A stretch of DNA of 64,000 bases, from positions 1 to 64,000 of IMG/VR virus record IMGVR_UViG_3300009502_000026. One strand, written 5' to 3'. This stretch comes from a virus. Positions within the stretch are counted from its first letter, which is position 1, and the number at the start of each line of letters is the position of its first letter. Under the pieces are notes generated by a model. The model searched no databases, was not told the DNA's origin, and was given only the letters and a program-made list of their open reading frames with translations. The position numbers and the translations under genes were made by a program. Positions 8,191 through 61,495 of the stretch are shown piece after piece.

Positions 8191-8511
8191 CTACTTGGAC
8201 ATCTTCTTCAATTCGGTCTTGACCCGCTTGGCAACTTCACCCTTCCAAGAACTCGCATTATTGAGGAAGTAGGCTACAATCCCCTTACCAGAATCAGCAC
8301 CGTAGTTATCTGTAATCTTGTCCAAACCAGACATAGCTTCCAAGTAGGGCTTGGCTGCGAAGTTGACATTCTTCCAGTCCCGACGAATCTCGTCTGCAAT
8401 CTCATGGAGCGGACGTGTGCTATCTGCCGTGAGAATAGGGAGTAGATGTGGGCGTAGCTCAGGATTTGCGTGAGCTAGACGAATGATCTTGGAACGGAGA
8501 GGATCGGTCAT
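8191..8511 (-). CDS. Small propeptide-bearing protein (106 aa)
   Basis: The start is ATG 8511, giving MTDPLRSKIIRLAHANPE followed by LRPHLLPILTADS, the shared head-targeting-like module. The mature part (about 78 aa, ending VKTELKKMSK) is basic and has no recognised motif. A longer frame upstream of 8511 is ignored because it has no relation to the family and would overlap the next gene. Its ribosome binding site (AGGAG) lies in the 3' arm of a 9-bp hairpin (8515-8537). Confidence 0.65.
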   Translation of the reverse strand: MTDPLRSKIIRLAHANPELRPHLLPILTADSTRPLHEIADEIRRDWKNVNFAAKPYLEAMSGLDKITDNYGADSGKGIVAYFLNNASSWKGEVAKRVKTELKKMSK

Positions 8512-8514
8512 GGA

Positions 8515-8537
8515 TAGAACTCCTACAAGGAGTTCTA
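8515..8537 (-). promoter_or_regulatory. Hairpin enclosing a ribosome binding site
   Basis: The 9-bp perfect stem 8515-8523/8529-8537 has a 5-base loop. The AGGAG of the gene starting at 8511 is in the arm nearer the start codon, so folding would hide it. Possible translational control; also a possible weak terminator for the gene ending at 8549. Confidence 0.45.
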
Positions 8538-8548
8538 CCATAGGGAAG

Positions 8549-8980
8549 CTACTTAGGAGTCTTGAGCTTGATGATTCCTTGATGAAGAGCATCCTTGTCC
8601 AGATTGGATTCAGGACGGGGCATGTGAGGTAGACCCCCACGAAGAGCATCAATGTCAATCTTAGGGGATGACTCCCACAAGGTAGACAACTCTTCAACTT
8701 CCCTCTTGGCAAGGACACCCTTGAGCTTGCGGTAAGGCCACAGAGCCGTGTGGATCTTCTGCTTCAGTCTCAAGTAGGGAAGGTAAGCAGGACTGAGACT
8801 AAACTTGCGGTGTAGTTTTGGGGTTTGGAGTCGGAGCTTCAGGAAAAGTAGTGCCTCTACTGACACCATCTTTGAGATGGGGCCCTTCAGTTGCGTCTGA
8901 TAGAAATCCTCTAGGGTCTTGTGGATTCTCTCCACCTTTACCTGAAAAGAATAGATGATCTTGGGGGTCTTGAAAATCAT
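8549..8980 (-). CDS. Basic protein of unknown function, downstream of actin-like gene
   Basis: 143 aa, rich in Lys, Leu and aromatic residues (VKVERIHKTLEDFYQTQLKG, LRLKQKIHTALWPYRKLKGV). The start codon overlaps the stop of the actin/Hsp70-like gene (ATGA at 8977-8980), which implies translational coupling. A partner or accessory of the ATPase is possible from position alone; no family is recognised. Confidence 0.5.
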   Translation of the reverse strand: MIFKTPKIIYSFQVKVERIHKTLEDFYQTQLKGPISKMVSVEALLFLKLRLQTPKLHRKFSLSPAYLPYLRLKQKIHTALWPYRKLKGVLAKREVEELSTLWESSPKIDIDALRGGLPHMPRPESNLDKDALHQGIIKLKTPK

Positions 8981-9987
8981 TCTGCGTACTCCTGGAGAGC
9001 TTGTACCAATAGACCTTGTGCTACTGCATTCAGAGGATCAACCGCTGCCCGTACTTCAGAAATCTCGATGGGGAACTTCTTCCTCTTCCGGTCAAACACC
9101 ATATTGAAGAAGTCCAAGAAACCCCCAGCCTTGGATGTCCCACCAGAGACAATCATGGGGATAGGCTTCGGAGCCGAGAACTTATGGGCAATGTTCCCGA
9201 ACTGAAGAGCAATCTGGTCCAGAACGTACTCCACCATTGAACGGTAGTAGAACACCAGTGCCTCTTCCTCCCGACCCTTGGGAGCCATGAGGTCAATGCC
9301 CTTCTCCTTCAGATAGCACAGACGTGCCTGGGTGGACCCGATGGACGTAGCCGCACCATGGTCAATCCAGTCACCCCCACGGGCAACACTGAAACTCAGT
9401 GCCTCAATAGTGTTCAGTGCCAGAGCTACGTTTACCATCCCCGAACCGAAAGAAATCCCAATCCCAGAGAAGCCTTCCTTGGCTGTTTCACTGTAGATAA
9501 TCCCCATGGCTTCATTCGCAGCCGTAGGGGTGTACCCACAGTCCCGAACAATTCTCTCCAGGATTCCTCGATGGTAGATCACGTCCCGGTCTGTTTGGTC
9601 CATAGGTGCCGCAGGGACCGAGAAGTAGCAATGTTCCTTCTCGACTCTTGGGTCACCCAAGACAGACTTGATCAGGAGTGCCAGAATCTCCAGGGCATCC
9701 CCTTCTCTGGAGGAAATCATCCCTGAAGCCAAGGGCCTACGGGCTTCTCGGCCGAAGATGTTGGCTGTCTCCAGAGCAGCATCTCCGAGAATAAGAATCT
9801 CGTTGGGCCTCTCAACGTAGCCCACACCAGTGAGCTTCAACATTTTCTTGGCTTCCACAGGAAGCTCCAGGAAGGCATCCCGGATACGCCTAGTCTCTAC
9901 ACCTTTGAGAGTCTTTCGTGCGGAAACAATATTCATTGTACCAATATCTGCCCCGACCCCTGGAGAAAGCTTCTCAACCATTACCAA
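8977..9987 (-). CDS. Actin/Hsp70-like ATPase (ParM/MreB/FtsA superfamily)
   Basis: 336 aa, the expected size for an actin-fold ATPase. Phosphate-1 loop: GADIGTMNIV (residues 12-21, Asp14-x-Gly-Thr). Connect-type segment: TAANEAMGIIYSE. Phosphate-2-like segment: GIGISFGSGMVNVAL. Adenosine loop: MIVSGGTSKAGGF near residue 290. The phosphate-2 segment lacks the usual acidic first residue. The C terminus, DPLNAVAQGLLVQAL, resembles the DPxxAVAxG ending of Hsp70/MreB-like proteins. It lies inside a structural operon between an overlapping upstream gene (9974-10519) and a coupled downstream gene. Candidate roles are a filament that positions or segregates phage DNA, or an assembly chaperone; sequence alone cannot choose. 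Confidence 0.8.
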   Translation of the reverse strand: MVMVEKLSPGVGADIGTMNIVSARKTLKGVETRRIRDAFLELPVEAKKMLKLTGVGYVERPNEILILGDAALETANIFGREARRPLASGMISSREGDALEILALLIKSVLGDPRVEKEHCYFSVPAAPMDQTDRDVIYHRGILERIVRDCGYTPTAANEAMGIIYSETAKEGFSGIGISFGSGMVNVALALNTIEALSFSVARGGDWIDHGAATSIGSTQARLCYLKEKGIDLMAPKGREEEALVFYYRSMVEYVLDQIALQFGNIAHKFSAPKPIPMIVSGGTSKAGGFLDFFNMVFDRKRKKFPIEISEVRAAVDPLNAVAQGLLVQALQEYAE

Positions 9988-13788: not shown

Positions 13789-16257
13789 CTAGCTGTACTT
13801 GACAGTGAAGTATTCGCCCTTGATGAATACCGTCAAGAGGATATCACCGGGGAGGACGTAGAACACCCCATCCTCCTTTTCGGCCTTGGCGAGCTTGATA
13901 CCGGGATACTTGGCTTCGATCTGGTCTGCCGTGAGTGCCTTGCTGGCACCCAGAGATTCAGGGATGAGCCCAGTTGCACCGATATAGAACACCAGGGGAC
14001 TGACTTCGACCTTGAAGAGTCGGTCGATCATGTCATCCACCTTGCGGAGGGTGGTGGTCAGAGTCTCCACAGCCTTGTCCTTGTTGGTGGGAGACTGGAA
14101 GGAACTCAGGGTGTCCTGAATCTCTCCCTTGGTCAGACCCGCAAGAGCCAACTGTGCCTGAGCCATCCCGTTGCTCTCCAGCCCCAGGAACTCTGCATAG
14201 ATGGGGTAGCACAGGGCATCCACATCATCCAGAGTGGTCTTGCCAGAGAGCTTCTTGACACCCCAGGGCTCATGGTTCGCAAGAGCCAAGTCCAGAGTGG
14301 GCTTGTCCACTTCCTTCCCACCCACCTTCACTGTGAACCGACGCTGAAGGAAGGCATTCCCGGAGAGGAGCTTGCCCAGGTTGGTGATCTTGGGAGTCCC
14401 AAGCTCGATCTTGTAGGAGAGCCGGGTGTCCACATCACCCTTGGCGATGGCATCATCCAGGTTGGGGTGGATGGAAGTCGTCGGCGGGGAGAAGTACAGG
14501 CTCGACGTGAGAAGGTACGTCTTGAGCTCTGCCACCTGTTCCGGGGTGTACTTGGTGCTCTCCGACTTGAGGACAGCACTCAGGAGCTTGGACACCACCT
14601 GAAGGCCCAGGAGGTTGGGGAACACCGTGGGCTTGATCCCGTAGTCCTGATCGTACTCCACCAAGGGGCACTTGCCGAACGGGAGAACGTAGGTGGTATC
14701 CGGGTTGAAGTCCCCAGTCACCATGCCCATGTCCTTCAGGGCCTTGAAGCACCGCTTGTCCGTGGTACGGATGGGGAACTCTGGGGAATTGCACACCCCG
14801 TCCCCAACCAACGTATAGTTATTGAAAGAGGACAAATCCAGGGTGATCCCGGCAACCTTGGGAATCACGTTCCCCGTCGCCTTCTCGATGAGGTCAACCG
14901 GCTGGAACAGGAGCACGTTGATGGTAGCCGTGTTCCTGTTGAACTCGAAACTTCCGACCTTCACGAACCCAGTGGAAGCCTTCGGCTTGGTCTCATAGGC
15001 AGGCTCCGTCAAGGAGCCGTCCGGGTTGCGAACACCGGACACCTTCTTGAGTCCCCGACGCTTGTACCCTGCCGTGAAGGGCTTCATGTCCACCGTGAGG
15101 GAGCTCCGGTACTCATCCAGGACTGCCAGGACTGCCAGGAGACTCGGGCCCGTGGTGGGGAGCCCCAGGGATGCCGTCTTGGTGAATGCCTTGGGGGTGA
15201 AGATGGCCGTCTCCACATCCGAAGCCATTGCAGCAATCTCGGTGCTCACCAGTGCCCGTGCGTGCTGAACCAGGAGCTCCGTGTGACGGCTGCTCACCAG
15301 GGCATACTTGGCATCGTTGAGCCTGCCCTCGGAAATCAGGGCTCGGCAGTAGGCCAGGACAGGGGTGATCGGAGCCGTATCCCCACAGACCGGAAGCATG
15401 GACTTGTTGTACTCTGCCTCACTCAGGGGGAAGAGCCGGTATGCCGTCTTGTCATCGGCAGGAGCCAACCCCTGGACCGTGAGGGCACCTTCCGCACCCA
15501 GCACCTTCTTGGCCGACGTGCTCACGAAGAGGGCATAGCCTCCACCCTTCGGCATCGGAATCTCCACCACCGGAGCCATTGCACCGGCTACCAGCTTGGT
15601 GGTGTCATACAGGGCCGTGTAGACCTGCTTGATGTCCCGTGCCTGGATACACGTCCCGGAGCACTGGTTGGAGATGTTGCTCAGGAGCCCGAAGTCACAC
15701 CAATCCCGGTAGGCAATGGTGTTCACGAAGCAACAGGGGTGCTTCTTGATCTGGTCCACCGCTGCCTGGATGGCCCGGAACTCACTGGAGGGGCTCCGGT
15801 CATTGGCGAAACCATCGGTGTGCAGGGAGATGGAAGTGGTCTCGCTGTCCTGAACGAGCTTCTCCGCTTCCACCAGGGACTGAGAGATACAGGTCATGCA
15901 GGTTGCCCTGATGGACCGGATCTCCTTGATGAAGGGGCTGTTCGCAGCCATCACGTCCGAGATGAGCTCCCGCTTGAAGTGGACCTTCACATCCCCCATG
16001 CTGGAGTAGGAGAGGAGAGACACCCGGAGCGACGGGGAGTTGAACTCACTGAGAGTGAGAACCTTCTCCACCATCGTCTTCAGGGGGTCCATGTCTCCGT
16101 ACATGGACCCCGACCTGTCAACGATGATGATGTGATGGCTGGGCTTCGGAACTGCCTTCTTGGAGGGGTCTGCCGAGAGATTCTCGGCCTCCACCTGGAA
16201 GTAGGACCGGGGCTTGCCTGCGAACGAACACAATGCGAACTTGCTGGACGTAGACAT
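13789..16257 (-). CDS. Von Willebrand factor A domain protein (822 aa)
   Basis: Residues 42-240 form a VWA fold with a complete MIDAS-type metal site: VDRSGSM (Asp47-x-Ser49-x-Ser51), a Thr near 119-122 (RATCMTC) and LHTDGFANDRS (Asp148). The remaining 580 residues are unassigned, mixed alpha/beta, with no signal peptide or membrane helix, so the protein acts in the cytoplasm or in the virion. VWA proteins bind partners through the metal and often work with AAA+ ATPases, but none is adjacent here. The gene stands alone between hairpin 13745-13771 and a conserved promoter-like motif (16304-16339), so it is probably its own transcription unit. Start ATG with AAGGATGA upstream. Confidence 0.8.
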   Translation of the reverse strand: MSTSSKFALCSFAGKPRSYFQVEAENLSADPSKKAVPKPSHHIIIVDRSGSMYGDMDPLKTMVEKVLTLSEFNSPSLRVSLLSYSSMGDVKVHFKRELISDVMAANSPFIKEIRSIRATCMTCISQSLVEAEKLVQDSETTSISLHTDGFANDRSPSSEFRAIQAAVDQIKKHPCCFVNTIAYRDWCDFGLLSNISNQCSGTCIQARDIKQVYTALYDTTKLVAGAMAPVVEIPMPKGGGYALFVSTSAKKVLGAEGALTVQGLAPADDKTAYRLFPLSEAEYNKSMLPVCGDTAPITPVLAYCRALISEGRLNDAKYALVSSRHTELLVQHARALVSTEIAAMASDVETAIFTPKAFTKTASLGLPTTGPSLLAVLAVLDEYRSSLTVDMKPFTAGYKRRGLKKVSGVRNPDGSLTEPAYETKPKASTGFVKVGSFEFNRNTATINVLLFQPVDLIEKATGNVIPKVAGITLDLSSFNNYTLVGDGVCNSPEFPIRTTDKRCFKALKDMGMVTGDFNPDTTYVLPFGKCPLVEYDQDYGIKPTVFPNLLGLQVVSKLLSAVLKSESTKYTPEQVAELKTYLLTSSLYFSPPTTSIHPNLDDAIAKGDVDTRLSYKIELGTPKITNLGKLLSGNAFLQRRFTVKVGGKEVDKPTLDLALANHEPWGVKKLSGKTTLDDVDALCYPIYAEFLGLESNGMAQAQLALAGLTKGEIQDTLSSFQSPTNKDKAVETLTTTLRKVDDMIDRLFKVEVSPLVFYIGATGLIPESLGASKALTADQIEAKYPGIKLAKAEKEDGVFYVLPGDILLTVFIKGEYFTVKYS

Positions 16258-16399: not shown

Positions 16400-17854
16400 C
16401 TACCACCCCGTAGGAGTAACCTTGTAGTGCTTGAACTTCAACTGAAGGATGTTCAGTTGCTTCGGGGTGAACGATTGCCGTGCCTTGACCCTATCAGCAA
16501 GAGACTTCACGAAAGTCTTAGTCCATTCATCTCTAGCTGCTCTAGCTGCCGTCCAGAGTTCCCGTAGAGAGCCCAGCCTGGGATCTTCTCCTGGAGTTGC
16601 AGGTACCGGAGGCTCGGGCTTGTGCTCTGGCTTAAAATCAGGCTTCGGCTCTGGCGATGGAGGTACAGGCTTGGGTACAGGCTTGGGTTCAGGCTTCGGA
16701 GGCTCTGGTTTCACAGGCTCCGGTTCCTTTACCGTAACGATAGACTGTTCTTCCTGTTCACCTTCAGGAAGCTTCTGGACTATGATCCTCTTGAAAGCTT
16801 CCTCATGCTCTGGGGTCAGATGACTTGTCAGATACCTGGAGAAAGACTCTGCAAAGTGTTCCTCTTGGTCCGTTGCTGAATAGGGTGTGGGGAACTTTGC
16901 AAAAGTCTGCCTCTTACGCAAAATCTTCTGAAGTTCTGTTACCTTAATGAGCCCCCCACCATCAATCTCGACATATACACCTTTGTAAGAAAGAATACGA
17001 GGTTTATTAGTGTAGCCTTTGACATTGATTGGAAACTCTTCACCTACTGCCGGAAGCTTTGGTGACTCTCCACCCTTATACTTGACATCCATGTGGTGTT
17101 TTCCCCACATGGATTTCGTGGCACCATCCATGAACTTCCGCCACCAGCGATGAGCTAATTCATGGAGGAGAGTCTCAACATCATCCACTCTCACACTGGG
17201 ATGTGGACGAAGGTAAACATCATCCTTTGCAACATTGTACCAAGCTAGTGTACTTGCCTTGCTAATCTGCCCTACAATGAAGACATCACCATAGAGAACC
17301 TTGAGAAAGGCAGGCACTTTTCGTAGAAACACCTGGGCTCGCTCCACCACTTCCTTGGTTGAAGCAAGCTCCTTCCCCTGAAGGTGCAAGGTGTTGTGGA
17401 CCTTGAGTTTCCCTATGGTGAAGAGTTCTTCTCTGCCACTGACTACACCCTCAGTCCTCTGGGGCCAATCCGCAGCTTCTACCAGGAGCCGAAGATTGTC
17501 CTCATTCCGCTGATACCAAGTCCAGATATTCCGAGCTACACCAGCTACAGACACAAACATCCGTGCGGCTGTTTCAAGCTTCCTAACCTTGGTAGGTGGG
17601 ATTGACCGTGTGCCTAGAACCCAGTTGGTGTATTCCTTTCCCTTGTTGACAAGGCTCACCCACGGGTTCCGCAAATCATATTTCACGGTCCAATCACTAG
17701 GTTTCCCACCGGAGGCGCTCTGGATAGCACGATACTTCACTAGAAAGTTTTGGTAGGCTTCCATGAAGCTACCTCTGATCCTAGTAGTATCTGCCTCGGT
17801 GTACTCAGCACCGAACAGGAACCTGGAAGCTACCTTATGAGGGGATAGGTGCAT
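16400..17854 (-). CDS. HExxH metalloprotease with Pro-rich linker and shared C-terminal domain
   Basis: 484 aa. The zinc-binding motif LLHELAHRWWRKF (HELAH at 231-235) is followed about 100 residues on by EEHFAESFSRYL, the usual place of the third, Glu ligand in gluzincins. After a Lys/Pro/Glu-rich linker (about 365-415) comes a terminal domain RLGSLRELWTAARAARDEWT, nearly the same as in the zincin at 20023-21669. The N terminus (MHLSPHKVASRFL) carries a VA-RFL motif seen also at 61532. It is probably a packaged or late protease; the substrate is unknown. First of a run of cargo-like genes. Confidence 0.7.
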   Translation of the reverse strand: MHLSPHKVASRFLFGAEYTEADTTRIRGSFMEAYQNFLVKYRAIQSASGGKPSDWTVKYDLRNPWVSLVNKGKEYTNWVLGTRSIPPTKVRKLETAARMFVSVAGVARNIWTWYQRNEDNLRLLVEAADWPQRTEGVVSGREELFTIGKLKVHNTLHLQGKELASTKEVVERAQVFLRKVPAFLKVLYGDVFIVGQISKASTLAWYNVAKDDVYLRPHPSVRVDDVETLLHELAHRWWRKFMDGATKSMWGKHHMDVKYKGGESPKLPAVGEEFPINVKGYTNKPRILSYKGVYVEIDGGGLIKVTELQKILRKRQTFAKFPTPYSATDQEEHFAESFSRYLTSHLTPEHEEAFKRIIVQKLPEGEQEEQSIVTVKEPEPVKPEPPKPEPKPVPKPVPPSPEPKPDFKPEHKPEPPVPATPGEDPRLGSLRELWTAARAARDEWTKTFVKSLADRVKARQSFTPKQLNILQLKFKHYKVTPTGW

Positions 17855-17869
17855 TGGAGGGGTGCATCC

Positions 17870-18673
17870 TTACAGATTCACGTCTTCCATGTCCCTCACG
17901 AAGTCTGCCCAGTCAGCCTTCCAACCACTTGGACGACCACCCTGACGACCCAGATAGAGAACCGTGCCCTTGGTAGGATTGAAGGTTGTTGGGTGCCCTA
18001 CTCTCTGAACGGCATACATCCCAAAGACAAGATTACCTTCCTTGGTCATTCTCATCTGGGGGACAAGTCCGCTGAAATAGACACTGTAACGGCTCTCCCC
18101 CTGGGCGGAACCAGCCTCAACATAGTCATCTATGATTTCCATGTGAGTCTTAGTCGGAAGCTTGCCATTCTTGTCCTTCAGATACACACACTCCATGTGT
18201 ACCTTGCCCTCAGTGCCCTTCTCCACACCGGAGCCAATCGGGGTGAACCTACCAAGGCCAGTTTCCTTACCGGGCTGGACACCATAGAAGAAAATCTTCT
18301 TATGGTCCTGGTCCATTTCAATAGTGTAACCCTTGTGGTCCTTGTCTACCACACGCCCCGTCTGACGGTGATACTCACGGCAGGTTTCCTCATTCTGTTC
18401 ATTAGTGTTGACATTCACGTCAACACTAACAAGTTCACCTACGGACAAGGGGCCCCGACGAGCTTCTACTGAACCCAACAGAGGTACACCCTGCTTTTCC
18501 AAAATCTCCTGAACCTCATCCGGGGTGTACTTCTTAGCCCTGAGCATCACCCATGCTACGAAGTCCTCAGAGGTAGGGGAGAAAGCCGTCTTCCCTAGAA
18601 CCGGAAGAAGCTCATTCCGAAACTCAGGGTGTTCGTGGGCTAGCTTGATGACCTTGGACCGGAGAGTTTCCAT
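17870..18673 (-). CDS. Propeptide-bearing cargo protein (267 aa)
   Basis: The N terminus METLRSKVIKLAHEHPE then FRNELLPVLGKTA is the shared leader module. A helical stretch (YTPDEVQEILEKQGV) follows, then a beta-rich domain (TGRVVDKDHKGYTIEMDQDH, VHMECVYLKDKNGKLPT). No catalytic motif is recognised. It sits in a block of leader-bearing genes (17870-19980), suggesting a protein packed inside the head and processed there. ATG start with AAAGGAA upstream. Confidence 0.6.
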   Translation of the reverse strand: METLRSKVIKLAHEHPEFRNELLPVLGKTAFSPTSEDFVAWVMLRAKKYTPDEVQEILEKQGVPLLGSVEARRGPLSVGELVSVDVNVNTNEQNEETCREYHRQTGRVVDKDHKGYTIEMDQDHKKIFFYGVQPGKETGLGRFTPIGSGVEKGTEGKVHMECVYLKDKNGKLPTKTHMEIIDDYVEAGSAQGESRYSVYFSGLVPQMRMTKEGNLVFGMYAVQRVGHPTTFNPTKGTVLYLGRQGGRPSGWKADWADFVRDMEDVNL

Positions 18674-18717: not shown

Positions 18718-19161
18718 CTACTCTTCATCTTCCAGGATAGCACCAAGCATCTTCACGAAGTCAGCCGGGGGCAGACCCTTCATGCGTTCCTTGGTCTCAG
18801 GCTTGGCATTCTGAAGGAACTTCCGCATGAGTTCTGCATCCGAGAGCTTCACACCACTCTTCGGCTTGTCCTTCTTGAACTTCTTGACCTCATCTGCATC
18901 ATCATCCTTGAGCTTGTGCTCATCCATCACGGACTTCACATTCTCATGGTACTTGCCAGCGTAGGTCTTGTTCTTCCAGGAGCTACCCTCGGGGAGAGCA
19001 CCCTCACTACCAATGTCCTCACACTTCCGGGTTCCATCATCCCAGTTAGTGCCATCTTCACACCGCTCATGGGGTGTGGATGCCAGGATGGGGAGGATGT
19101 GGGGACGAAGCTCAAGGTTGGAATGAGCTAGACGGATCAGTTTGCCACGTAGGGTTGTCAC
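18718..19161 (-). CDS. Small charged propeptide-bearing protein
   Basis: 147 aa. The leader MTTLRGKLIRLAHSNLE then LRPHILPILAST is followed by a Cys-containing segment (CEDGTNWDDGTRKCEDIG) and a Lys/Asp-rich helical C terminus (DADEVKKFKKDKPKSGVKLS). Start at ATG with AGAGGAGAT. The head-cargo role is inferred from the leader and charge only. Confidence 0.6.
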   Translation of the reverse strand: MTTLRGKLIRLAHSNLELRPHILPILASTPHERCEDGTNWDDGTRKCEDIGSEGALPEGSSWKNKTYAGKYHENVKSVMDEHKLKDDDADEVKKFKKDKPKSGVKLSDAELMRKFLQNAKPETKERMKGLPPADFVKMLGAILEDEE

Positions 19162-19173
19162 TGGAAATCTCCT

Positions 19174-19980
19174 CTACTTCTTAATATCCTGGGATTCATT
19201 CCTAGACTTCTTCTCATGCCAGTCAGACCACTTTTTATGCCTAGCTGCTTTTTCCTTGTGAGTCTTAGCCTCTTCGTGCTTACCCGCCTTGGTAGCAGCT
19301 TCGGCAGCTTCTTCATGAGCTTCAGTAGCTCGCCTGTGGCTACTACCCGCTATATAGTGGTCATCCCCAGTATTCTGATGCGTCTCTTCATAGTGCTTGG
19401 CAGCTTTTGAATTCTCTTCAGCACCTTCAGTTCTATCTTCAGCATAGTTCTTGGCATGGGAATAGGCATCATCTAATGCCTTCTGCTTGTGATGCTTGGC
19501 CTTTTCCTCATGGTGCTGGGCCTTCTCAGTATTTCCACGTTCCTTATGATGCTTGGCTGCATCTTCATGTTTCTTTGCAACATCATTATGGAGCTTCTCC
19601 CCCTCCCAATGTTGGTGTCCAGTGTCATCCAGTTTCTCGGAAGCCTTGTCTGCGGTAGAAGAGATGGCATCATCTTCCTGCTTCTTCTTCTTCTCAATGC
19701 CTTCATGGTGTTCCTTGGCCTTATCCTCCTTCCCCTTTTCATGCTTCTCTAGGTCACCATTCTTCTTGTCGAACATCTCTCGGATGTGCTTCTGCTCATC
19801 CTTGGGGAGAGAATCGAAATCGACCTTGTTATGTGTCTCAGGATTGGTGAACTTCTTGGTTTCGATATAGGCATCAAAACCCCCACCCATAGCCGTCTTC
19901 AGGATAGGAAGAAGATGTGGACGAAGATCGAGATTGGAATGGGCCAGACGAATCAACTTGCCACGAAGAGTGTCAGTCAT
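19174..19980 (-). CDS. His/Lys/Glu-rich repetitive cargo protein
   Basis: 268 aa. The leader MTDTLRGKLIRLAHSNLD then LRPHLLPILKTAM is followed by about 180 residues of imperfect helical repeats (AKHHKERGNTEKAQHHEEKA, EAATKAGKHEEAKTHKEKAA), which read like degenerate TPR/coiled units loaded with His, Lys and Glu. The composition resembles T4-like internal proteins. The short gene at 30450 has the same repeat style (DTDKAKYHEDKAKYHEKKEL). Many plus-strand open frames opposite this gene are low-complexity shadows. DNA or metal binding is possible but unproved. Confidence 0.65.
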   Translation of the reverse strand: MTDTLRGKLIRLAHSNLDLRPHLLPILKTAMGGGFDAYIETKKFTNPETHNKVDFDSLPKDEQKHIREMFDKKNGDLEKHEKGKEDKAKEHHEGIEKKKKQEDDAISSTADKASEKLDDTGHQHWEGEKLHNDVAKKHEDAAKHHKERGNTEKAQHHEEKAKHHKQKALDDAYSHAKNYAEDRTEGAEENSKAAKHYEETHQNTGDDHYIAGSSHRRATEAHEEAAEAATKAGKHEEAKTHKEKAARHKKWSDWHEKKSRNESQDIKK

Positions 19981-20022: not shown

Positions 20023-21669
20023 TCAGAAACCCTTACCGGGTTCTATCTTGTATTGCTTGAATTTCCTACCAAGGATATCTGTCTGCTTGTAGGTGAGCTT
20101 CTTACCAGCTTTGATCTGATCCCCAATAGACTTCACGAACTTCATGGTCCAGTCATCGGACCCTGCCCGTGCAGCTTTCCAAAGATCCCGGAGGGACCCC
20201 AACCTAGAGTCTTCCTTGGGTTCATGGACTACAGGCTCGGGAGCTACAGTCTTAGGGGCTACCGGGAATCTACTGGGTGGGAGAGGGCTAGAGAGATGAG
20301 TAGCCTTGTATATCTCCACCAGTGCCTTCCGGTACTTCCCTGCGGCATCTGGCACCCTACTGAGTGTGCCGAAGAACTTGTCCTGGTAGATTCCAGCATA
20401 AGGGCCGTAATTTGCCTCTTCATAACTAGGACGAGGCAGTAATCCTACGAATATCTTGAGTGCCCTCTCCGGGTCTGCATCCGGTAAGAGTACCAGCATT
20501 TTCTTGAACTTATAGATGGAGTCCGTCAGTCGAGTCTGGAACTCGATGTCATCCAAAGCATGAATATCTGTTTCCTGGAAATTCTGTACTCCCTGATTCT
20601 TCAACTTCAGGAGTGCCTTCAACCTTTCCTGTCTCTGCTTACCATCTTCCTCTGTCTTGGCATTAGCAGGAAAATCCTTCATCATCCATTGCTTGTACTG
20701 GGGTGTCTTCATCCTCTGCCCTGGAAGCCCTGCTACAGGAGCCGTCCAGTTGTCCATATTCACAGAGAATGACAGGTATGCTTGAGCTAGATGCTGGAGT
20801 TCATGCCGAATCGTTTGACGGAACTGATCCTCCAGTTGCTTCGGGTTCAACTCCCGGATACCCCCTTCGGCCTCAACAGGAAACCATAGGCTCAGGGTCT
20901 TCAATGGGGCTTGCCATTGTCCACCTGGATTCTTGCCCCCACCATAATCCCCATTTAGTTTAACGTGAATGATCTTCCAGGATTTGATACCCCCTGCAAT
21001 ACCCTCCCGATACATCTCCAGGAGACTCTCATTTGCCTTGTTTTGCTTGGGATCATCTGTCTTACCAAGATTCAGTGTTTTGATTGTATCTTGAATCTTC
21101 TTCTCCATGTGGGCTTCAAGGTCAATCTTGTAGCGCCAACCGGACAAGTCCAAGTTAAAATCCTGCTTGATCTGCCCGTTCCTCTCAATACCGTGTGCAG
21201 ACCCCGCTATGCCCTTTAACTTGCCCCAAGCTTCATCATACTTCTTCTGATCCCCTTCGGCATTCCGAATGTTTGCTTCCACCATTTCTATCGTGAAGTC
21301 AAAGCTCTTCTTCAAACTCTCAGGGTCAGACTTCAAGAGTTCATTGAACTTACTGAACGTAGCCCCACCATGACCATATCCCAACCGAGACATGGCTAGA
21401 AGAGAAAATTCCTGGTAAGCCTTGAAGGCTTCCCTGGACTTCCCCTTGTCAATGGTATCTCGGGCAGTCTTGATGGTTTTCTCCAGGTTAGTCTTCAGTA
21501 ACTTTTGATCCGCAATGTAGCTCAAGTAAGCACCGGGACCATTCCATTGAAGAACTGAAGCTATGACAATGGGGAAAGCCCAGTCAAAGATAGTAGACAC
21601 CATCGCTGGAGGGGCTTCAAGAGTCCCTGCTAGGTGCTCCAAGACAACTTTGGTAGGTGAGGGTATCAC
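20023..21669 (-). CDS. HExxH metalloprotease with shared RLGSLR domain
   Basis: 548 aa. Zinc motif RQTIRHELQHLAQAYLSF (HELQH at 289-293). Before it is a helical region of about 200 residues rich in Lys (LEKTIKTARDTIDKGKSREA). The C-terminal 75 residues (RLGSLRDLWKAARAGSDDWT, KLTYKQTDILGRKFKQYKIE) are clearly paralogous to the end of the zincin at 16400-17854, though the catalytic halves differ. The N terminus, PTKVVLEHLAG, is a loose variant of the VA-RFL motif; residues 20-50 are hydrophobic (FDWAFPIVIASVLQW) and could touch a membrane. Substrate unknown. Confidence 0.65.
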   Translation of the reverse strand: MIPSPTKVVLEHLAGTLEAPPAMVSTIFDWAFPIVIASVLQWNGPGAYLSYIADQKLLKTNLEKTIKTARDTIDKGKSREAFKAYQEFSLLAMSRLGYGHGGATFSKFNELLKSDPESLKKSFDFTIEMVEANIRNAEGDQKKYDEAWGKLKGIAGSAHGIERNGQIKQDFNLDLSGWRYKIDLEAHMEKKIQDTIKTLNLGKTDDPKQNKANESLLEMYREGIAGGIKSWKIIHVKLNGDYGGGKNPGGQWQAPLKTLSLWFPVEAEGGIRELNPKQLEDQFRQTIRHELQHLAQAYLSFSVNMDNWTAPVAGLPGQRMKTPQYKQWMMKDFPANAKTEEDGKQRQERLKALLKLKNQGVQNFQETDIHALDDIEFQTRLTDSIYKFKKMLVLLPDADPERALKIFVGLLPRPSYEEANYGPYAGIYQDKFFGTLSRVPDAAGKYRKALVEIYKATHLSSPLPPSRFPVAPKTVAPEPVVHEPKEDSRLGSLRDLWKAARAGSDDWTMKFVKSIGDQIKAGKKLTYKQTDILGRKFKQYKIEPGKGF

Positions 21670-21692: not shown

Positions 21693-22262
21693 CTACCGTA
21701 GACCTTCCAGAAGTGCCGCTAGGATGAAAGCGTGTCCCATCTTCCGGTCAGGACAGTTCACCACATCTTTGAGAGTCATACCCAGTGCTAGATGGTCATA
21801 CCCATCAAAGTCCCAGAGAGTGAGAGACCCCCGTTCCTGGTACAACTCCCTGAGCTTCCAGAAAGCCCAAGTCTCTGCTACAGTGTGGGCATAGAGAGGG
21901 ATATAGACCTTCTTCCTGGCCTCCAGGTAAGTGAGCTTCTTCCCTCCCCAATAGGTATAGAGAGGTAAAACACCCTTCCCCATCGGGTACCGTTCGGCTC
22001 TTGAATTCTCCCAACCTTCCTTAGCCCAATCGAAGTAGGCTTGGGTGGGATTCTGGTCACTGTCTACATGTTGGAGATATACTTTGGCATGTTGCCAAGC
22101 ATTCTCCATTGTCCTGGATTCTGGGACAACGGCACCTTCATAGAGGGGTACGGGTCCGAGAAGGAACGGACTGAGCCCTCTACTCCAATTTCTGGACCTG
22201 GAAGTGGTATCTATGGTGTCTTCGGGACGAGGTTCTTTGAACCCAATGACTCTGACTGGCAT
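21693..22262 (-). CDS. DUF6939-like protein, distant NADAR look-alike
   Basis: 189 aa. The pattern RNWSRGLSPFLLGPVPLY, TMENAWQHAKVY, ERYPMGKGVLPLYTYWGGKK, DFDGYDH and RKMGHAFILAALLE matches my memory of the DUF6939 family of phage and bacterial proteins. Its spacing of ENAWQ-K and MGHA--LA--L recalls NADAR (ADP-ribose/ADP-ribosylation-linked) proteins, which is inference. It lies 12 bases before the metacaspase stop, co-directional with it. Enzyme activity is unproved. Confidence 0.6.
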   Translation of the reverse strand: MPVRVIGFKEPRPEDTIDTTSRSRNWSRGLSPFLLGPVPLYEGAVVPESRTMENAWQHAKVYLQHVDSDQNPTQAYFDWAKEGWENSRAERYPMGKGVLPLYTYWGGKKLTYLEARKKVYIPLYAHTVAETWAFWKLRELYQERGSLTLWDFDGYDHLALGMTLKDVVNCPDRKMGHAFILAALLEGLR

Positions 22263-22274
22263 CCCCTAGTTACG

Positions 22275-23090
22275 CTACCAGATGAGGGGACGGTCCTTCA
22301 GATCGTTAGCACCCTCAAGCTGGGGCACCTGTGAGTAGTGGGACTGACACAGGAACTTGTCCATCTCAGGGACGATTTTACTGAGTGGGGTATTGAGAGG
22401 GTTGTTCTTCAACACATGAAGAAGAGCATAGGTCATTGCCCCATTGTACCTGCCCTGGAAATTGGCATCAGCCGAAGTCTGATTACTCTTGCATCCAGAG
22501 ATATAGGCTAAATTGAGTTCAAGACCTGTAGGTGTAGACCTTCCCGTGATCTTGGTAGCCCTTATTCCCTTCTCCCTAGCCGTCTGGAGTCTCCAGTCAA
22601 TGTCAGCCGGGCAAGGATAGAGCTTGTGCAAGTCAGTAGCATGGTCGTGAGGCATCATCTCCTTCGTGAGATCCCCAGAGTGACAGCTATCACTGAGCCA
22701 CACTACGTTGGTCCCGGCAGGAATGCCCTGGAAAATGGCATTGAACTCCTTGTCCCGGAGCATGTGCAGATCAGTCCAATCGAAGTCTACAGGACAAATT
22801 GCCTCATCAAGACCATCTACCTCACCTTGCGGATTCCTGGTAGGAACCTGGGCACCATGTCCTGAATACTGGAAAACCACATGGTTCCCAGGCACCATCG
22901 CTTGCTTGAGCCACAGGAGCCTCTCTACGATGGCTTGCTTCGTAGCACGCTCATCCACCAGGAGTCGGATTTCCTCCCTCTTGAAACCCCTGGAAACAAG
23001 GTAATCTGCCATGTCTGTGACATCATCAACACATCCCCGAAGAGGACATCCTATGTACTTGTTGATGCCTACTAGCAATGCACGGTTCAT
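22275..23090 (-). CDS. Metacaspase-like cysteine protease (caspase fold, C14)
   Basis: 271 aa from ATG 23090, which follows a perfect GGAGGT site; a longer frame upstream is not used. The catalytic dyad is intact: His78 in VVFQYSGHGAQVP and Cys136 in VVWLSDSCHSGDL. The start MNRALLVGINKYIGCPLRGC, the VDDVTDMADYL segment and the later AYISGCKSNQTSADA and NGAMTYALLHVL are standard for bacterial/type I metacaspases, which cleave after Arg or Lys. No signal peptide or prodomain is seen. Its neighbours are a DUF6939-like gene and a tail-spike-like gene. It may cleave host or phage proteins, or interfere with host death pathways. Confidence 0.88.
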   Translation of the reverse strand: MNRALLVGINKYIGCPLRGCVDDVTDMADYLVSRGFKREEIRLLVDERATKQAIVERLLWLKQAMVPGNHVVFQYSGHGAQVPTRNPQGEVDGLDEAICPVDFDWTDLHMLRDKEFNAIFQGIPAGTNVVWLSDSCHSGDLTKEMMPHDHATDLHKLYPCPADIDWRLQTAREKGIRATKITGRSTPTGLELNLAYISGCKSNQTSADANFQGRYNGAMTYALLHVLKNNPLNTPLSKIVPEMDKFLCQSHYSQVPQLEGANDLKDRPLIW

Positions 23091-23113
23091 CTTTGACCTC
23101 CAAGACACCCTAC

Positions 23114-24670
23114 CTACGGGGGAGGAGCAGTAAGGGGAGCATAGTAGATGTCCCACCTAATGTCAGTAGGGATTCCAAGATTGTTCTGAATAACAGGGTA
23201 ACCTACACCGAAGATGCAAAGATAGCCCACAGAGGGTGTATTAGCCACATTGGCTGTATTCTCCTTCAAAGTGACAACACCACCAGCCGTAAATGTAAAT
23301 CTTGCAAACCCCAGGTCATTCCCAAAGGAAACAGTCCCCCAACCGGCCATACTATTAGGGATGTAGGGGAGTACATCTTGACCATTCAACACATATTTAC
23401 TCCCACAGAAATGAAACAACCCGTAAGAGCACTCTACGGTAATTGGGAATGTTGTAGCGTCGAGGTCTAACGCAGTACAATCATAGATTGCTCCCCGAAG
23501 GTCAACATCAGTGTATGTCCCGATCACCACATTGGGGGAAGGGATATTGTAATCATTGTTGAACCTAGTGCCCCGGCAAAACACCATAGAGTTGCCTGAA
23601 CCGGCACCGGCAGTATAAATAGAAAGGAACCCAGGAATCACGGCACCTGACAAGTCTACAACACTATTGGGTATCCCTGCCTGTGCAGGGAGAGCGAGCA
23701 TTACAGAGCCACTCAACCCAAATGAGTTATCAAAAGTGAATCCCCCATGAATGACTATTGAAGGAGCAAGACCCGTCCCATTGAACAGACCAGGGCCCAT
23801 GTAGTAATCTGAGCTTGTAACAAATCCAACTACCCCACAGGTAGTGTCCATCTCAAAAGAAGGTTGTCCTTGCAAGTAAATGGAACCTGTAGTGATTACA
23901 CCATCAGAAACGGTTCTGGTACCATTACAGAAGAGGTACTTCCCACGACCCATCACCGGAACCCAGGTAACGGAATCATCGTAAGTGAGAACAGTATCGT
24001 ACAGAACACACCCGTTGAATTCGGTGTAGGTGACGTTATTTGCTGAAATGAGTCCCTTACAAATCACATCGTAGGCAAAGATCCTCCCTGCTTGCTTGAA
24101 AAGAATAGCTTCATCAGGAGGAGCCGAAACGTCATCCTTTATACATAGAACATTAGAAATCTCACACCAATCGGTGAGGAAGGTATTCACACCATTCCCA
24201 TCGAGCCTCAGACACCATGCAGAAGCACCAGAAGTAGCATGTAAGGTAAGGTTTCTCATGGTGAAGAAACCAATTGCTATGCCTGCCAAAGGTGCCCATT
24301 CGAAGGCACTCCCAGATGCAGGCATTATGATCGTAGACTTGGCATCCAGACCTACCAATGCTGTGTTATCATAGGGTGCCCAAACCACATTCTCAGCATA
24401 AGCACCAGGGAACACTACAATGGTAGTCCATGTAGTCAGGTTCCCTACAGCATCCATGATGGTTGTGAAGGGTGCCCCAAGAGAACCATCTGAAGGTGCC
24501 CCTCCTGAATAGGAACCGTCTACGAACAGGACATGAGCATAGGGGGCAATGCTTCCTCCAGCACTTCCAGTAACCCAGTTGACCCCATCAAAGACCGGAA
24601 CTTGCCCAGCCGTAGCTCCCGGCCAAATGGATTGGAGAATCTGATCAATGCGTCGTCTCAGGACGGACAT
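23114..24670 (-). CDS. Beta-helix tail spike/fibre with MSVLRR anchor
   Basis: 518 aa. Residues 1-33 (MSVLRRRIDQILQSIWPGAT, GQVPVFDGVNWV) are the same N-terminal anchor as in the collagen-like fibres at 40712 and 45085 (and, more loosely, 41530). The body has pectate-lyase-like right-handed beta-helix character (SLGAPFTTIMDAVGNLTTWT, TIVVFPGAYAENVVW, TMRNLTLHATSGAS), as in phage tailspikes that bind or cut surface polysaccharide. The C terminus is a small beta domain. It lies outside the main fibre locus, beside the metacaspase. No catalytic residues can be assigned. Confidence 0.7.
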   Translation of the reverse strand: MSVLRRRIDQILQSIWPGATAGQVPVFDGVNWVTGSAGGSIAPYAHVLFVDGSYSGGAPSDGSLGAPFTTIMDAVGNLTTWTTIVVFPGAYAENVVWAPYDNTALVGLDAKSTIIMPASGSAFEWAPLAGIAIGFFTMRNLTLHATSGASAWCLRLDGNGVNTFLTDWCEISNVLCIKDDVSAPPDEAILFKQAGRIFAYDVICKGLISANNVTYTEFNGCVLYDTVLTYDDSVTWVPVMGRGKYLFCNGTRTVSDGVITTGSIYLQGQPSFEMDTTCGVVGFVTSSDYYMGPGLFNGTGLAPSIVIHGGFTFDNSFGLSGSVMLALPAQAGIPNSVVDLSGAVIPGFLSIYTAGAGSGNSMVFCRGTRFNNDYNIPSPNVVIGTYTDVDLRGAIYDCTALDLDATTFPITVECSYGLFHFCGSKYVLNGQDVLPYIPNSMAGWGTVSFGNDLGFARFTFTAGGVVTLKENTANVANTPSVGYLCIFGVGYPVIQNNLGIPTDIRWDIYYAPLTAPPP

Positions 24671-26537: not shown

Positions 26538-27572
26538 TCAGAACTGAGCCATCCACTTCTTGACTTCATCTGATAACTCACTCGGCTTCACAACCCTGGT
26601 AGTCAACAGTTCTGCAAACCATTCCCTAGGGTTCTTACGGGCATATTCCGTAGGCATCCAATCACTCAGCTTGTTCTGGTACAGATTCTCTCGACGCTGG
26701 TATGCCTCTGAAGGGGTATTCTCCCGCTTCACCACAAGGTCATTCATCTCTTTCACCTTGATTTCAATCTCAAGGTTTACAGCCGTAATCCTCTCCTTGA
26801 GTCCTGGAGTAGCTTCCAGTAACTCAGAAGTAGGGTGGTGCCTGATGTATGGAGGCTTCCACCCCTGAGAGACAATGGTAGCCATGTCATTGGGAGATGG
26901 ATTCAAGAGTTCAACCTCTGTGAGCTTCCCACCCTTCCCAGGTACAGGCTTGATGACCCTGTACTTCCTGGTCACCTTCTCATTGTGAGTGAAAGGATTG
27001 TCCCAACTTGTGATTTCTACGATAGCACCCTTGGCTACCATTCTCAGGAGTTTGCCCTTGTCAAGTTCAAGCTTGGCTATCTCTTCCCTGAGAATATCAT
27101 AGGGGTCCACAGCTTGAGCTTTAGTAGGGGCTTCCTCCTTGGCCCAGATGAACTTCTCAATGATCTTCCCGTTGTTGAATTTGCCCGGCACGTTGTTGTA
27201 GTGATACCAGTGAGCTAGCTCATGGATGAACGTGAAATAGTTATCACCGGATTTCAAAGCATTGGGGAGAATCTGAACGTGGTTTGTATTGGGGTCAAAG
27301 AATGACCGTTGAGCGGCACCCTTCCCCTTGACTACTATGTCCACCTTCCCCCTGAGAGGGAACCCAGCACTGGAGAAGTCCCTACTGGCTTTCTCCAGAC
27401 CCTCTCGGATCATGCCCAAGTAATCTATGTAATGATGATAAATGTGAATAACGAAACCCCCTGTCTCGATGACAGTGATGAGTTCCACAGCTTCCTTCAA
27501 GATTGGAAGGAGATGGGGTCTAAGCTCCGGTTGAGTGTGGGCTAGATGGATGAGACTAGATCGAAGAGTCAT
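26538..27572 (-). CDS. Propeptide-bearing HExxH metalloprotease
   Basis: 344 aa. The leader MTLRSSLIHLAHTQPE then LRPHLLPILKEA precedes a zincin domain with FTFIHELAHWYHY (HELAH at 117-121). A likely third ligand is in NPREWFAELLTTRVV near residue 325, the EWFAE pattern of gluzincins. The pairing of leader and protease is the best case for a protease carried inside the head and injected. It lies between the GIY-YIG-like gene and the amidase. Its target is unknown. Confidence 0.72.
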   Translation of the reverse strand: MTLRSSLIHLAHTQPELRPHLLPILKEAVELITVIETGGFVIHIYHHYIDYLGMIREGLEKASRDFSSAGFPLRGKVDIVVKGKGAAQRSFFDPNTNHVQILPNALKSGDNYFTFIHELAHWYHYNNVPGKFNNGKIIEKFIWAKEEAPTKAQAVDPYDILREEIAKLELDKGKLLRMVAKGAIVEITSWDNPFTHNEKVTRKYRVIKPVPGKGGKLTEVELLNPSPNDMATIVSQGWKPPYIRHHPTSELLEATPGLKERITAVNLEIEIKVKEMNDLVVKRENTPSEAYQRRENLYQNKLSDWMPTEYARKNPREWFAELLTTRVVKPSELSDEVKKWMAQF

Positions 27573-32534: not shown

Positions 32535-33494
32535 CTAACTGATGAGGGTGGAGGCATGAGCCAGAAGTGTGCAAAGCCCCAAAACTATTGGGAAAACAAC
32601 GAAATTACGGGGGGACAAAACGCCCCGGCCGACGCTGGGACCGAAGCTTGATCTAATGCCAACTCCGTACTTAGGCTGAGACACACCACGGATGAACTTG
32701 GTAGTCCTTGCCTTCATCTCCGTGGCCTTATCGAACTGTTGCTCAGCATTCTGCTTCAAGGACTCATACTTGGAGGACTTCTCAATCGAGAGTGAGATGC
32801 CTCCAATGCTGTAGTCAAACTCGTCTGCCGTCCAGTTCATTGCCAGGGAAAAGCAAGCATGGGTGATGGCATTCCACAGGATTGCCGTTCTCCAAATAGG
32901 CTTCTTTGCCACCAAGTCATCAATGGTTCTGAGGTCTTCAGTCTCCGGGGGAAACATGTTCCACCAGTCCATGCTTCTCTCGATGTACTCAGCAAGTTCG
33001 GCATCTTCCCATAGCTGCCCGAAGACCCTGTTGTAAGACCCAATGGTGCCTTCATGCTCTGGGGGACGGAAGCGATAGAACTTGTCAGGAGAGTTTTTCA
33101 ATACATTTTGTGTGCTTACACACACGAATCTGTACCAATCCGCAACAGTGAGATCGTACATATACTGTCGCACCGGGAGAGTTTCTACGGACTTCACTGG
33201 CAGGTAAACGACAGCATCCCCGACAACAGACAACACCATATCACCGGGTTTGAGAGTCTCGGCCGGAACCTTATCCTCCAGGCCCAGCCCAAGGTAGACC
33301 GGGTGGCCTCCGGTCAACACCATGGTTCCTACATCGTTGGTGACAGCAACGATATGCTCCCAAGGAACCTCATTGCGAATGACATTCTCAATGCGTTTCC
33401 ACTCGACGTTGCCATCAGGGGATACCGAACGCACTTTGAGTTTGCCCGTATGGTAAGATGACTTGACCCTCACACGCTGCGCTTCGGTCAACAT
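32535..33494 (-). CDS. Split intein C-fragment (134 aa) plus C-extein of virion protein
   Basis: 319 aa. Residues 1-134 are an intein C-part: VRSVSPDGNVEWKRIENVIR, block B TGGHPVYLG (TxxH), AETLKPGDMVLS, block F YMYDLTVADWYRFV, and block G NVLKN with Ser135 as the +1 nucleophile. The penultimate His is Lys. Residues 135-319 (SPDKFYRFRPPEHEGTIGSY, AELAEYIERSMDWWNMFPPE) read as the second half of a structural protein that has no start of its own, ending in a hydrophobic tail. Its partner is the product of 34303-34791. The start overlaps the nuclease gene by 7 bases; GAGAGG precedes the ATG. Confidence 0.85.
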   Translation of the reverse strand: MLTEAQRVRVKSSYHTGKLKVRSVSPDGNVEWKRIENVIRNEVPWEHIVAVTNDVGTMVLTGGHPVYLGLGLEDKVPAETLKPGDMVLSVVGDAVVYLPVKSVETLPVRQYMYDLTVADWYRFVCVSTQNVLKNSPDKFYRFRPPEHEGTIGSYNRVFGQLWEDAELAEYIERSMDWWNMFPPETEDLRTIDDLVAKKPIWRTAILWNAITHACFSLAMNWTADEFDYSIGGISLSIEKSSKYESLKQNAEQQFDKATEMKARTTKFIRGVSQPKYGVGIRSSFGPSVGRGVLSPRNFVVFPIVLGLCTLLAHASTLIS

Positions 33495-55731: not shown

Positions 55732-57474
55732 CTAGACGTAGATACCAGTCAGATTCTCTGCCATGTTCTTACCCGAAAGGGTGATCTGGAGTCCTACCCC
55801 AGTCAGCTTGACCAGACCCTCACCTAGAAGCTTCACAATGATAGGGTTCTTGGGGTCATACTTCCCAAGCCCCTCACGTCCAAAAGCCTCTCCTCGGGAA
55901 CCCGCCTTGTAGGACTTGATGATCTTCAGTGCCTTCTTCTCATCCTCCGAGAGCTCAACCTGTGTCTCAGACGGGAGAAGCTTCTGAAGGTTGTCAGGAT
56001 TTACATAAACAGAGGCATAGGGTGTTCCCCCAATGAAACCCTTCACAACAGCACCATTCATCGGAATGGGGTAGTTCTTGTCATCCAAGTCTACCTGATT
56101 CTTGGGGTTGAACATGTTTGCCCCTCCCCAGGAACCCCATTCAAGCTTGTAGCGTCCCGTCCCTAGGTCAACTACAGCCGTGAAACCTCTACGGCCCTCA
56201 CCACCGGGATCTACTGGAGAGTAGGTATTTGAAGGGATCACTCTGATGTCCCTACGCCCGTAATCCACTTCTTTCAGAACATTCCTGATACCTTGGGGCA
56301 AGTCCTTTGTCAACATGTACTGACCCGAAGCTTCCTTGATAAGAGGAAGAAGGTCCCCACGGAACTCAGGATGGGAGTGGGCGAGCTTGATGATCTGGGA
56401 CCGGAGGCTAGCTCTCTTCTGCCCCTGGAAAGGAACATCCATATCAGACATAGCAGCATTGTAAGCTCTCCATACCTGATACATCTTCCGCATGGGGAAA
56501 CGGTACTGATCAGCTTCCTCATCGGTCTTGGCACTCATCTGCTTTTTGACAAGATCACTCTTAATATCATCAACAGCATGGAATTCCTTCTGAACCTTGT
56601 CCTTCTCCCCACTCTTCATCCTCTTCACAAGGTCTTTCTGAAGAGCTTTTACTGCCGGATGGCGATATGCCTTGTCCTTGTCCAAGTCTGCATCTGGCAT
56701 CTTTTCCATAGCATCCTGAAGATGCTTGGGCATTGCCTTGACCTCTGGGGGAACCTTCAACCCAGGAGGGGCCTTTTGAGGATAGTAACCGTTCTTCCTC
56801 TCATTCTTGTAAGTATCAGACTTGTGGTGCTCATCGTGATTGAAAGCTACTGAATGATTTTCTGGCTTGGCCTTGGGATGAGCCTTGAGGTACTCATCCA
56901 TAGCTTCCTGGGTCTTGAACTCCATAGCTGTCTTCAAGATAGGGAGAAGGTCTCCTCGGAACTCAGGGTGAGCATGGGCGAGCTTGATGACCTTAGACCG
57001 GAGAGATTGTGTGTTCACGTCTGCATTCCTCTGCTTGAGAAGGTAGATGTTCGTCTCATGTGCATTGGCTAGTGCCATGATGAAGTCATCCAAACCGAGA
57101 GTCATCTCCCCAGAACCCTTGATGGCTTCATAGAGTTCCTTCAGAATCACCTGAAGTTTCTCTTCCAACATCAAGGCCCTGAAAGGGATGTCACCTGACT
57201 TCCCATAGTATTTCCTGAGTGCCCGCATTGTGAGGGCTTCAATCCCAAGGGGCTCCACGGCTCCTGGACCAAAGTATGAGACGATCTTCTCAGCTAGACC
57301 ATCAACCTCATCTGACACACTCACATAGAGACGGTTGAAAAGATCATGGTCAGAGTAAGAGATAGCCCCATTGGTCTGCCAATGTGAGGTCCAGTGGGAC
57401 CAATGCAAAGCCTTCAGAAAGGCTAGGGCCTGTACCAGGAGACTCTTGGTGCTGTCGGAGGAAGGGGTTCCCAT
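55732..57474 (-). CDS. Polyprotein: Dps-like domain plus two leader-delimited cargo domains
   Basis: 580 aa in three parts. Residues 1-150 resemble Dps/ferritin-like proteins (LKALHWSHWTSHWQTNG, HDLFNRLYVSVSDEVDGLAE: His, Asp and Glu at the usual ferroxidase-type positions). Residues 158-183 (LRSKVIKLAHAHPE, FRGDLLPILKTA) and 357-382 (LRSQIIKLAHSHPE, FRGDLLPLIKEA) are internal copies of the leader module. The middle part begins with the second module (FKTQEAMDEYLKAHP) and is Lys/His-rich; the last is a beta domain (RRGFTAVVDLGTGRYKLEWG). The internal leaders suggest cutting by the head-maturation protease into separate cargo proteins. Confidence 0.72.
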   Translation of the reverse strand: MGTPSSDSTKSLLVQALAFLKALHWSHWTSHWQTNGAISYSDHDLFNRLYVSVSDEVDGLAEKIVSYFGPGAVEPLGIEALTMRALRKYYGKSGDIPFRALMLEEKLQVILKELYEAIKGSGEMTLGLDDFIMALANAHETNIYLLKQRNADVNTQSLRSKVIKLAHAHPEFRGDLLPILKTAMEFKTQEAMDEYLKAHPKAKPENHSVAFNHDEHHKSDTYKNERKNGYYPQKAPPGLKVPPEVKAMPKHLQDAMEKMPDADLDKDKAYRHPAVKALQKDLVKRMKSGEKDKVQKEFHAVDDIKSDLVKKQMSAKTDEEADQYRFPMRKMYQVWRAYNAAMSDMDVPFQGQKRASLRSQIIKLAHSHPEFRGDLLPLIKEASGQYMLTKDLPQGIRNVLKEVDYGRRDIRVIPSNTYSPVDPGGEGRRGFTAVVDLGTGRYKLEWGSWGGANMFNPKNQVDLDDKNYPIPMNGAVVKGFIGGTPYASVYVNPDNLQKLLPSETQVELSEDEKKALKIIKSYKAGSRGEAFGREGLGKYDPKNPIIVKLLGEGLVKLTGVGLQITLSGKNMAENLTGIYV

Positions 57475-60850: not shown

Positions 60851-61495
60851 CTAATGTCCCTGACCCCAAGGGGTCACATATAGAGGTTTACCATCCCACT
60901 TATGGACACTTACAACAGAATTGATCCTAGCACCCCCGGGTCCTGGGGCTTTTCGGATGACAGGTCCAACATACTTCCCCGGAACAGGCATCACATGATC
61001 ATCACTGACAGACTTTTGAGCAATCTCACGAAGTTCTACCATCTTTGGAGAGGGCAAACCTACAACCTCATAAGTATCAGTCTGTGTTTGATCATAGCCC
61101 CAGGAACCAACCAGGATGTCCCCCACTTGAAGGCCATGCTGGAAGTTCTTTCTGGCATCTACCTGCTCTTGCTTGTAAGCTAGAGTCTTCTTTCGGTCAT
61201 CAATCGTATCCTGGATGTACTTGTCTCTGGGTGTCTCACCCATGAAGCTGTTGTACCACAAAGGCTTCTGAGACTTACCCATGAAGGCAACCGCACCGGG
61301 CTTACCCCTGGGAGTGATATAGGTATAGATTTCCAGATCCGTTCCCTGTGTATCCACAGAGACAGCATCCTTTGGGACATAGATACTATGGGGCACAGGC
61401 ACCCTTCGCATAGCCTTCTTCAGGAGAGGAAGAATCCTGTGACGAAGCTCAGGCTTCTCATGGGCTAGCTTGACGAGTCGGGTACAGAGGGTCAT
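60851..61495 (-). CDS. Propeptide-bearing protein (214 aa)
   Basis: The leader MTLCTRLVKLAHEKPE then LRHRILPLLKKA is followed by a beta domain (HSIYVPKDAVSVDTQGTDLE, IYTYITPRGKPGAVAFMG), a short helix (DTIDDRKKTLAYKQEQVDAR) and an SH3-like VGDILVGSWGYDQTQTDTYE. No catalytic motif. ATG with AAGGAA. Inferred head cargo. Confidence 0.6.
   Translation of the reverse strand: MTLCTRLVKLAHEKPELRHRILPLLKKAMRRVPVPHSIYVPKDAVSVDTQGTDLEIYTYITPRGKPGAVAFMGKSQKPLWYNSFMGETPRDKYIQDTIDDRKKTLAYKQEQVDARKNFQHGLQVGDILVGSWGYDQTQTDTYEVVGLPSPKMVELREIAQKSVSDDHVMPVPGKYVGPVIRKAPGPGGARINSVVSVHKWDGKPLYVTPWGQGH

Follow-up and report, generated by a model that had tools for sequence, protein, structure and literature searches.

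The window, which is the whole 64,000-nt stretch of DNA analysed here, is part of a 94,090-bp IMG/VR record and carries a metacaspase gene of 271 aa at positions 22275..23090 on the minus strand, which the first-pass annotation had not specified, with the ATG at 23090 and the stop at 22275. The frame has no internal stop, and the GC content of the gene is 0.515 compared with 0.518 for the contig. A GTG start upstream of the ATG would yield a 293-aa ORF. The Shine-Dalgarno sequence GGAGGT precedes the ATG (minus strand, 23096..23101, read in the sequence and approximate to 1-2 bases) and therefore supports the ATG, not the upstream GTG, as the probable start. The upstream co-directional gene (23114..24670, minus strand, from the ORF list) ends 23 bp before this ATG and encodes a 518-aa protein that is fibre-like by sequence reading only and has no Pfam or PHROG match. 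The downstream co-directional gene (21693..22262, minus strand) starts 12 bp past the metacaspase stop and encodes a DUF6939 protein (PF22075, Pfam E 1.8e-6). The metacaspase would be expressed as a single gene within a run of co-directional genes.

The contig is from a tailed phage. Outside the window, the same record encodes a portal protein (phrog_16240), a large terminase (phrog_17415) and a match to a head-maturation protease (phrog_18299), and the window itself contains genes for an NAD-dependent DNA ligase, an endolysin-like protein 4.5 kb from the metacaspase and a Volactin-family actin-like protein (8977..9987, minus strand; PF25216, E 2e-71). The last is a marker of the phage clade, as is a conserved 458-aa phage protein (11170..12546, minus strand) with relatives in 21 contigs. 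At least 80 IMG/VR contigs encode homologs of the actin-like protein, and many of these contigs have the size of a huge phage. LR745208, an uncultured 485-kb phage that presumably stems from a study of huge phages, shares the gene order metacaspase, VWA-domain protein (52% identity), 458-aa protein (60%) and actin-like protein (72%). The VWA gene (13789..16257, minus strand, 822 aa; phrog_2426, Pfam VWA and synteny) serves in three phage records as a conserved landmark on the downstream side of the metacaspase. The distance between the two genes is about 0.8-1.0 kb in LR745208 and the 44-kb contig L198, and about 6 kb in the window, where six genes intervene, three of them tagged with a 28-aa repeat. 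The first-pass annotation had regarded the gene as phage-encoded, and this is borne out by the phage neighbors and by LR745208 and L198. Since a metacaspase precedes the VWA gene in these independent phage records as well, a host chimera is untenable and is largely refuted.

A Pfam search found Peptidase_C14 (PF00656) at residues 3-261 of the translated piece, with an E-value of 3e-29 and 102.8 bits against a curated cut-off of 21.4. The protein belongs to peptidase family C14 by this match, by its caspase fold and by its His-Cys dyad, His78 within SGHG and Cys136 within DSCHSG. The intact dyad had been read from the sequence in the first-pass annotation at these residue numbers, and both the Pfam score and the uninterrupted frame agree with that reading. 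Alignments of CgMCA and Yca1 to the window protein fall in two stretches, 3-150 (p20) and 195-263 (p10); the succession of p20 and p10 without a long linker is a feature of type I-like metacaspases. An AlphaFold (AF2) model built with a 36-sequence alignment had a mean pLDDT of 81 and a pTM of 0.80; the linker between the domains was modelled with low confidence. In a structure search, the 29 best matches among solved structures were all metacaspases or the Geobacter caspase-fold protein GSU0716, with E-values down to 6.5e-19. In TbMCA2, Cys92, Asp95, Ser156 and Asp211 were assigned to the basic S1 pocket (PMC4357240). Their counterparts in the window protein are C20, D23, S76 and D134, which are kept in 49-50 of 50 bacterial relatives, and the dyad is present in all 47 scorable viral relatives and the dyad plus the S1 pocket in 46 of the 47; because the GC-ND motif was part of the search patterns, C20 and D23 are to some extent conserved by construction, and H78, C136, S76 and D134 are unaffected. 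Cys136 and His78 would cut after Arg or Lys by means of the acidic S1 pocket formed by C20, D23, S76 and D134, and this P1 specificity is predicted from the pocket. We therefore describe the protein as a putatively active, short p20-p10 metacaspase of type I-like form, and give this description, taken jointly with the host-directed accessory role discussed below, about an even chance of being correct.

The calcium ligands of CgMCA include D198, D214 and D245 (PMC9622860). In the better of our alignments, D95 and D113 of the window protein match CgMCA D198 and D214, and K143 stands opposite D245, the position of TbMCA2 D220 (PMC9622860, PMC4357240). Two of three direct Asp ligands are therefore present (D95 and D113) and the third is a Lys, with a register at residues 112-114 that varies with the alignment. 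One alignment placed R112 opposite CgMCA D214; the pattern hydrophobic-D-D-[DE]-hydrophobic favors the alignment with D113. A loss of two calcium aspartates was dropped after the better alignment, which leaves one direct ligand lost. A basic residue, Lys or Arg, occupies the K143 position in 49 of the 50 bacterial relatives and in 35 of the 47 viral ones. With Lys143 standing in for one Asp ligand, the calcium dependence of the window metacaspase may be reduced or lost. The occurrence of Asp or of Lys/Arg at this one position constitutes a natural experiment on calcium control.

The type I metacaspases Yca1, CgMCA-I and TbMCA2 resemble the window protein in the alignment of p20 and p10, the dyad, the S1 pocket and the fold, but the window protein has no N-terminal prodomain. 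The closest resemblance is to short bacterial p20-p10 metacaspases (nearest L006, L007, L008, L009 and L045), which show 51-60% full-length identity and share the dyad, the S1 pocket and the basic residue at the calcium-ligand position; unlike the window gene, these uncharacterised copies have ordinary bacterial surroundings without phage genes. Orthocaspases such as MaOC1 have a p20 domain only, lack p10, and were reported to carry out calcium-independent autoprocessing (PMC5756287). They share with the window protein a prokaryotic caspase fold and, as predicted for it, a basic P1 residue. An assignment of the window protein to the orthocaspases was ruled out by the presence of p10. Among viruses, the LR745208 metacaspase is 53-55% identical to that of the window and likewise precedes the VWA gene in a setting of syntenic structural genes, but at about 0.8 kb from it rather than 6 kb, and in a record without annotation. 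The main text of the huge-phage paper PMC7162821 makes no mention of caspases. In a viral structure library, the significant matches came from viruses of eukaryotes, nearly all of them giant DNA viruses, and no phage protein was among them. The best of these matches, the metacaspases of Fadolivirus, Clandestinovirus and Medusavirus, are likewise virus-borne caspase-fold proteins but belong to viruses of eukaryotes and are only 11-32% identical to the window protein.

Caspase-fold proteases had been described as rare in phage genomes by the first-pass annotation. This held for deposited genomes, where the window protein matched one of 50,697 phage records (LR745208) and two distant bacterial relatives used as queries found LR745208 and one weak partial match. 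It did not hold for environmental viral contigs, where 49 loci were found. The result depended on search depth in IMG/VR: a single sequence found none, a two-sequence alignment found LR745208 only, and the 36-sequence alignment found 49 contigs with metacaspase relatives. Homologs in related phages, the search for which had been proposed as a check, exist in the same lineage (LR745208 and L198), and 49 IMG/VR contigs carry relatives. A large terminase was recognisable in 14 of 45 metacaspase records searched; the rest consists mainly of fragments and may include non-phage sequences. In the wider clade, 78 records collected through the Volactin, 458-aa and VWA genes included one with PF00656 (LR745208), and L198 was found later as a further carrier. 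The comparison of one in 78 clade records with 49 viral contigs indicates that the metacaspase is accessory within the phage clade and recurrent among viruses. We found no literature that treats phage metacaspases as a class, in a search that missed most subscription papers; the approximately 48 viral copies with conserved active sites have no description as a class in the papers that were searchable. Eight phage-related metacaspase operons have been noted in one bacterial species (PMC3501461), and phage-associated metacaspases are therefore not wholly new. The window protein itself is an addition to a known enzyme family, and what is notable is the repeated occurrence in phages. In two contigs (L238, 4621-6615; L243, 4450-6594), an intein-like insert whose core is HNH-like splits the metacaspase immediately after SGHG (SGHG/C...VFVHN/SQV). 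These copies would need splicing to give an active enzyme, since the insert interrupts the protein after the catalytic SGHG.

The sequences nearest to the window metacaspase are bacterial (47-60% identity), mostly from Bacteroidota and in ordinary bacterial surroundings, and the single nearest one is 58-60% identical. In the class of that bacterium, two of 395 genomes have a relative at E < 1e-30. In a tree built from 46 viral and 28 bacterial copies, about 10 changes between virus and bacterium labels were required, compared with 22 in shuffles, which implies repeated exchange between viruses and bacteria, probably in several events whose directions are unassignable. A single acquisition of the lineage copies received AU p values of 0.08 with three copies and 0.18 with two. 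The window metacaspase, carried by a huge tailed phage, would likewise have passed between phages and the bacterial gene pool. The dN/dS ratios of close viral metacaspase pairs with unsaturated dS were 0.08-0.23, whereas pairs with the window copy were saturated. These close pairs indicate that the gene is under purifying selection in viruses.

A 28-aa tag, LRxxLIRLAHxxPxLRPHLLPLLK, occurs in 12 copies on eleven predicted proteins of the 94,090-bp record. Nine of these proteins are encoded in the window (8191-8718, 17870-18673, 18718-19161, 19174-19980, 26538-27572, 55732-57474, 57508-59682, 60851-61495 and 61994-62374) and two outside it (87321-87737 and 89487-90653, contig coordinates). The proteins are otherwise unlike each other, and the tag is mostly at the protein start; it is internal in 55732-57474, where it occurs twice, and in 89487-90653. 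The tag is common to the huge-phage clade with or without a metacaspase, and several metacaspase-free relatives have 6-12 copies. None was found in the metacaspase contigs searched outside the window lineage. It may be a packaging or processing signal, and it was the one evident candidate for an Arg/Lys substrate of the metacaspase. A role of the tag as a general metacaspase substrate was rejected, as it is equally common in metacaspase-negative relatives.

The function of the enzyme can be read in several ways. Processing of virion proteins had been suggested in the first-pass annotation. In a role in virion or structural-protein processing, the metacaspase would trim tail fibers, the VWA protein or tagged proteins during assembly. 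The location of the gene would fit: it lies among structural genes, 23 bp past the one for the fibre-like protein, and in three phage records it precedes the VWA gene; the tag is also rich in Arg/Lys. However, the record has a separate head-maturation protease, the phrog_18299 match, and 77 of the 78 clade records, among them a 536-kb record that has the VWA gene, lack a metacaspase. The window metacaspase has no PHROG match, hence no match to a maturation-protease family. Because of the separate protease, the metacaspase-free relatives and the distribution of the tag, this role is weakened, and virion maturation is disfavored and quite improbable. An artefact is much less probable still, whether through fusion of host DNA with a phage contig or as a decaying, functionless passenger gene. 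The rarity of the metacaspase in the clade and the bacterial origin of its nearest single sequence would agree with it, but three phage records share the metacaspase-VWA arrangement, gene spacing is tight with a ribosome-binding site, GC content matches the contig and all active-site residues are retained.

Two further explanations place the target in the host. As a counter-defense protease, the enzyme would forestall suicide of the cell by specifically cleaving, or competing with, abortive-infection proteins of the host such as caspase-like proteins or gasdermins. Caspase-like proteases act in bacterial gasdermin defense, where they cut gasdermins (PMC9612521), and a patchy distribution with repeated exchange is typical of arms-race genes. 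Nevertheless, the neighbors of the metacaspase, when checked, included no linked defense, counter-defense, partner or target gene, and specifically no gasdermin, EACC1 or sensor partner of a caspase-gasdermin or EACC1-type system. The matches are at the domain level, with 76.8 bits over p20 in PADLOC and 34.9 for the NCBIfam EACC1-type model against a cut-off of 140. We consider counter-defense rather unlikely. A bacterial caspase homolog cuts an antitoxin (PMC7935541), and one viral metacaspase (L199) adjoins a holin-family gene; both would suit an executor of death or lysis that activates host zymogens or degrades host proteins late in infection and hastens death and release. The holin neighbor was observed once, though, the window contig already encodes an endolysin 4.5 kb from the metacaspase, and a check of the genes adjoining the latter revealed neither a gasdermin nor a toxin. 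The probability of this explanation is low.

The reading that we prefer, with roughly even confidence for and against, is a stand-alone, bacteria-derived accessory protease directed at the host, without a named target, for which activity, Arg/Lys specificity, calcium independence and role are all deduced. The targets of the metacaspase would be host proteins within the infected cell, and it would take no part in capsid maturation. Across unrelated metacaspase contigs no partner family recurs except HNH endonucleases and lineage-specific genes, and a stand-alone enzyme acting on cellular proteins fits this lack of a recurring neighbor. The bacterial caspase-fold proteases that cut antitoxins and gasdermins illustrate what its targets could be. 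The location upstream of the VWA gene in the structural region in three clade records runs counter to a host-directed role and could also indicate a role in the virion. In one lineage of metacaspase phages (L211, L222, L225, L227 and L229), genes for ClpS, Hsp20 and a ClpX-like ATPase lie nearby and form a possible proteolysis cassette. A partnership with ClpS and the N-end rule was rejected, as ClpS occurs in 4 of 46 records, all of one lineage (L211, L222, L225 and L229), and was not found in LR745208 or G000.

On the bacterial side, caspase-like proteases are enzymes of stress, death and defense. If phages widely carry active caspase-like proteases, the same fold serves both sides of the conflict. 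A more tentative proposal, which we regard as doubtful, is that huge and other tailed phages repeatedly domesticated short, calcium-freed metacaspases as a recurring class of host-directed effectors. The replacement of a calcium ligand by a basic residue would then represent release from calcium control, and this part shares the tentative standing of the whole. Such a class might be seen as established in viruses, because some copies (L238 and L243) carry inteins in the catalytic loop.

Two minor features of the surrounding genes were also observed. Three proteins around the metacaspase (16400-17854, 20023-21669 and 26538-27572) have HExxH motifs resembling those of zinc peptidases (HELAH, HELQH and HELAH, respectively) and match no Pfam family. 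A HINT/intein-like segment begins a conserved phage protein in the window (32535-33494) and in contig L004 (3006-3899), with weak Pfam matches to PT-HINT and Intein_splicing.
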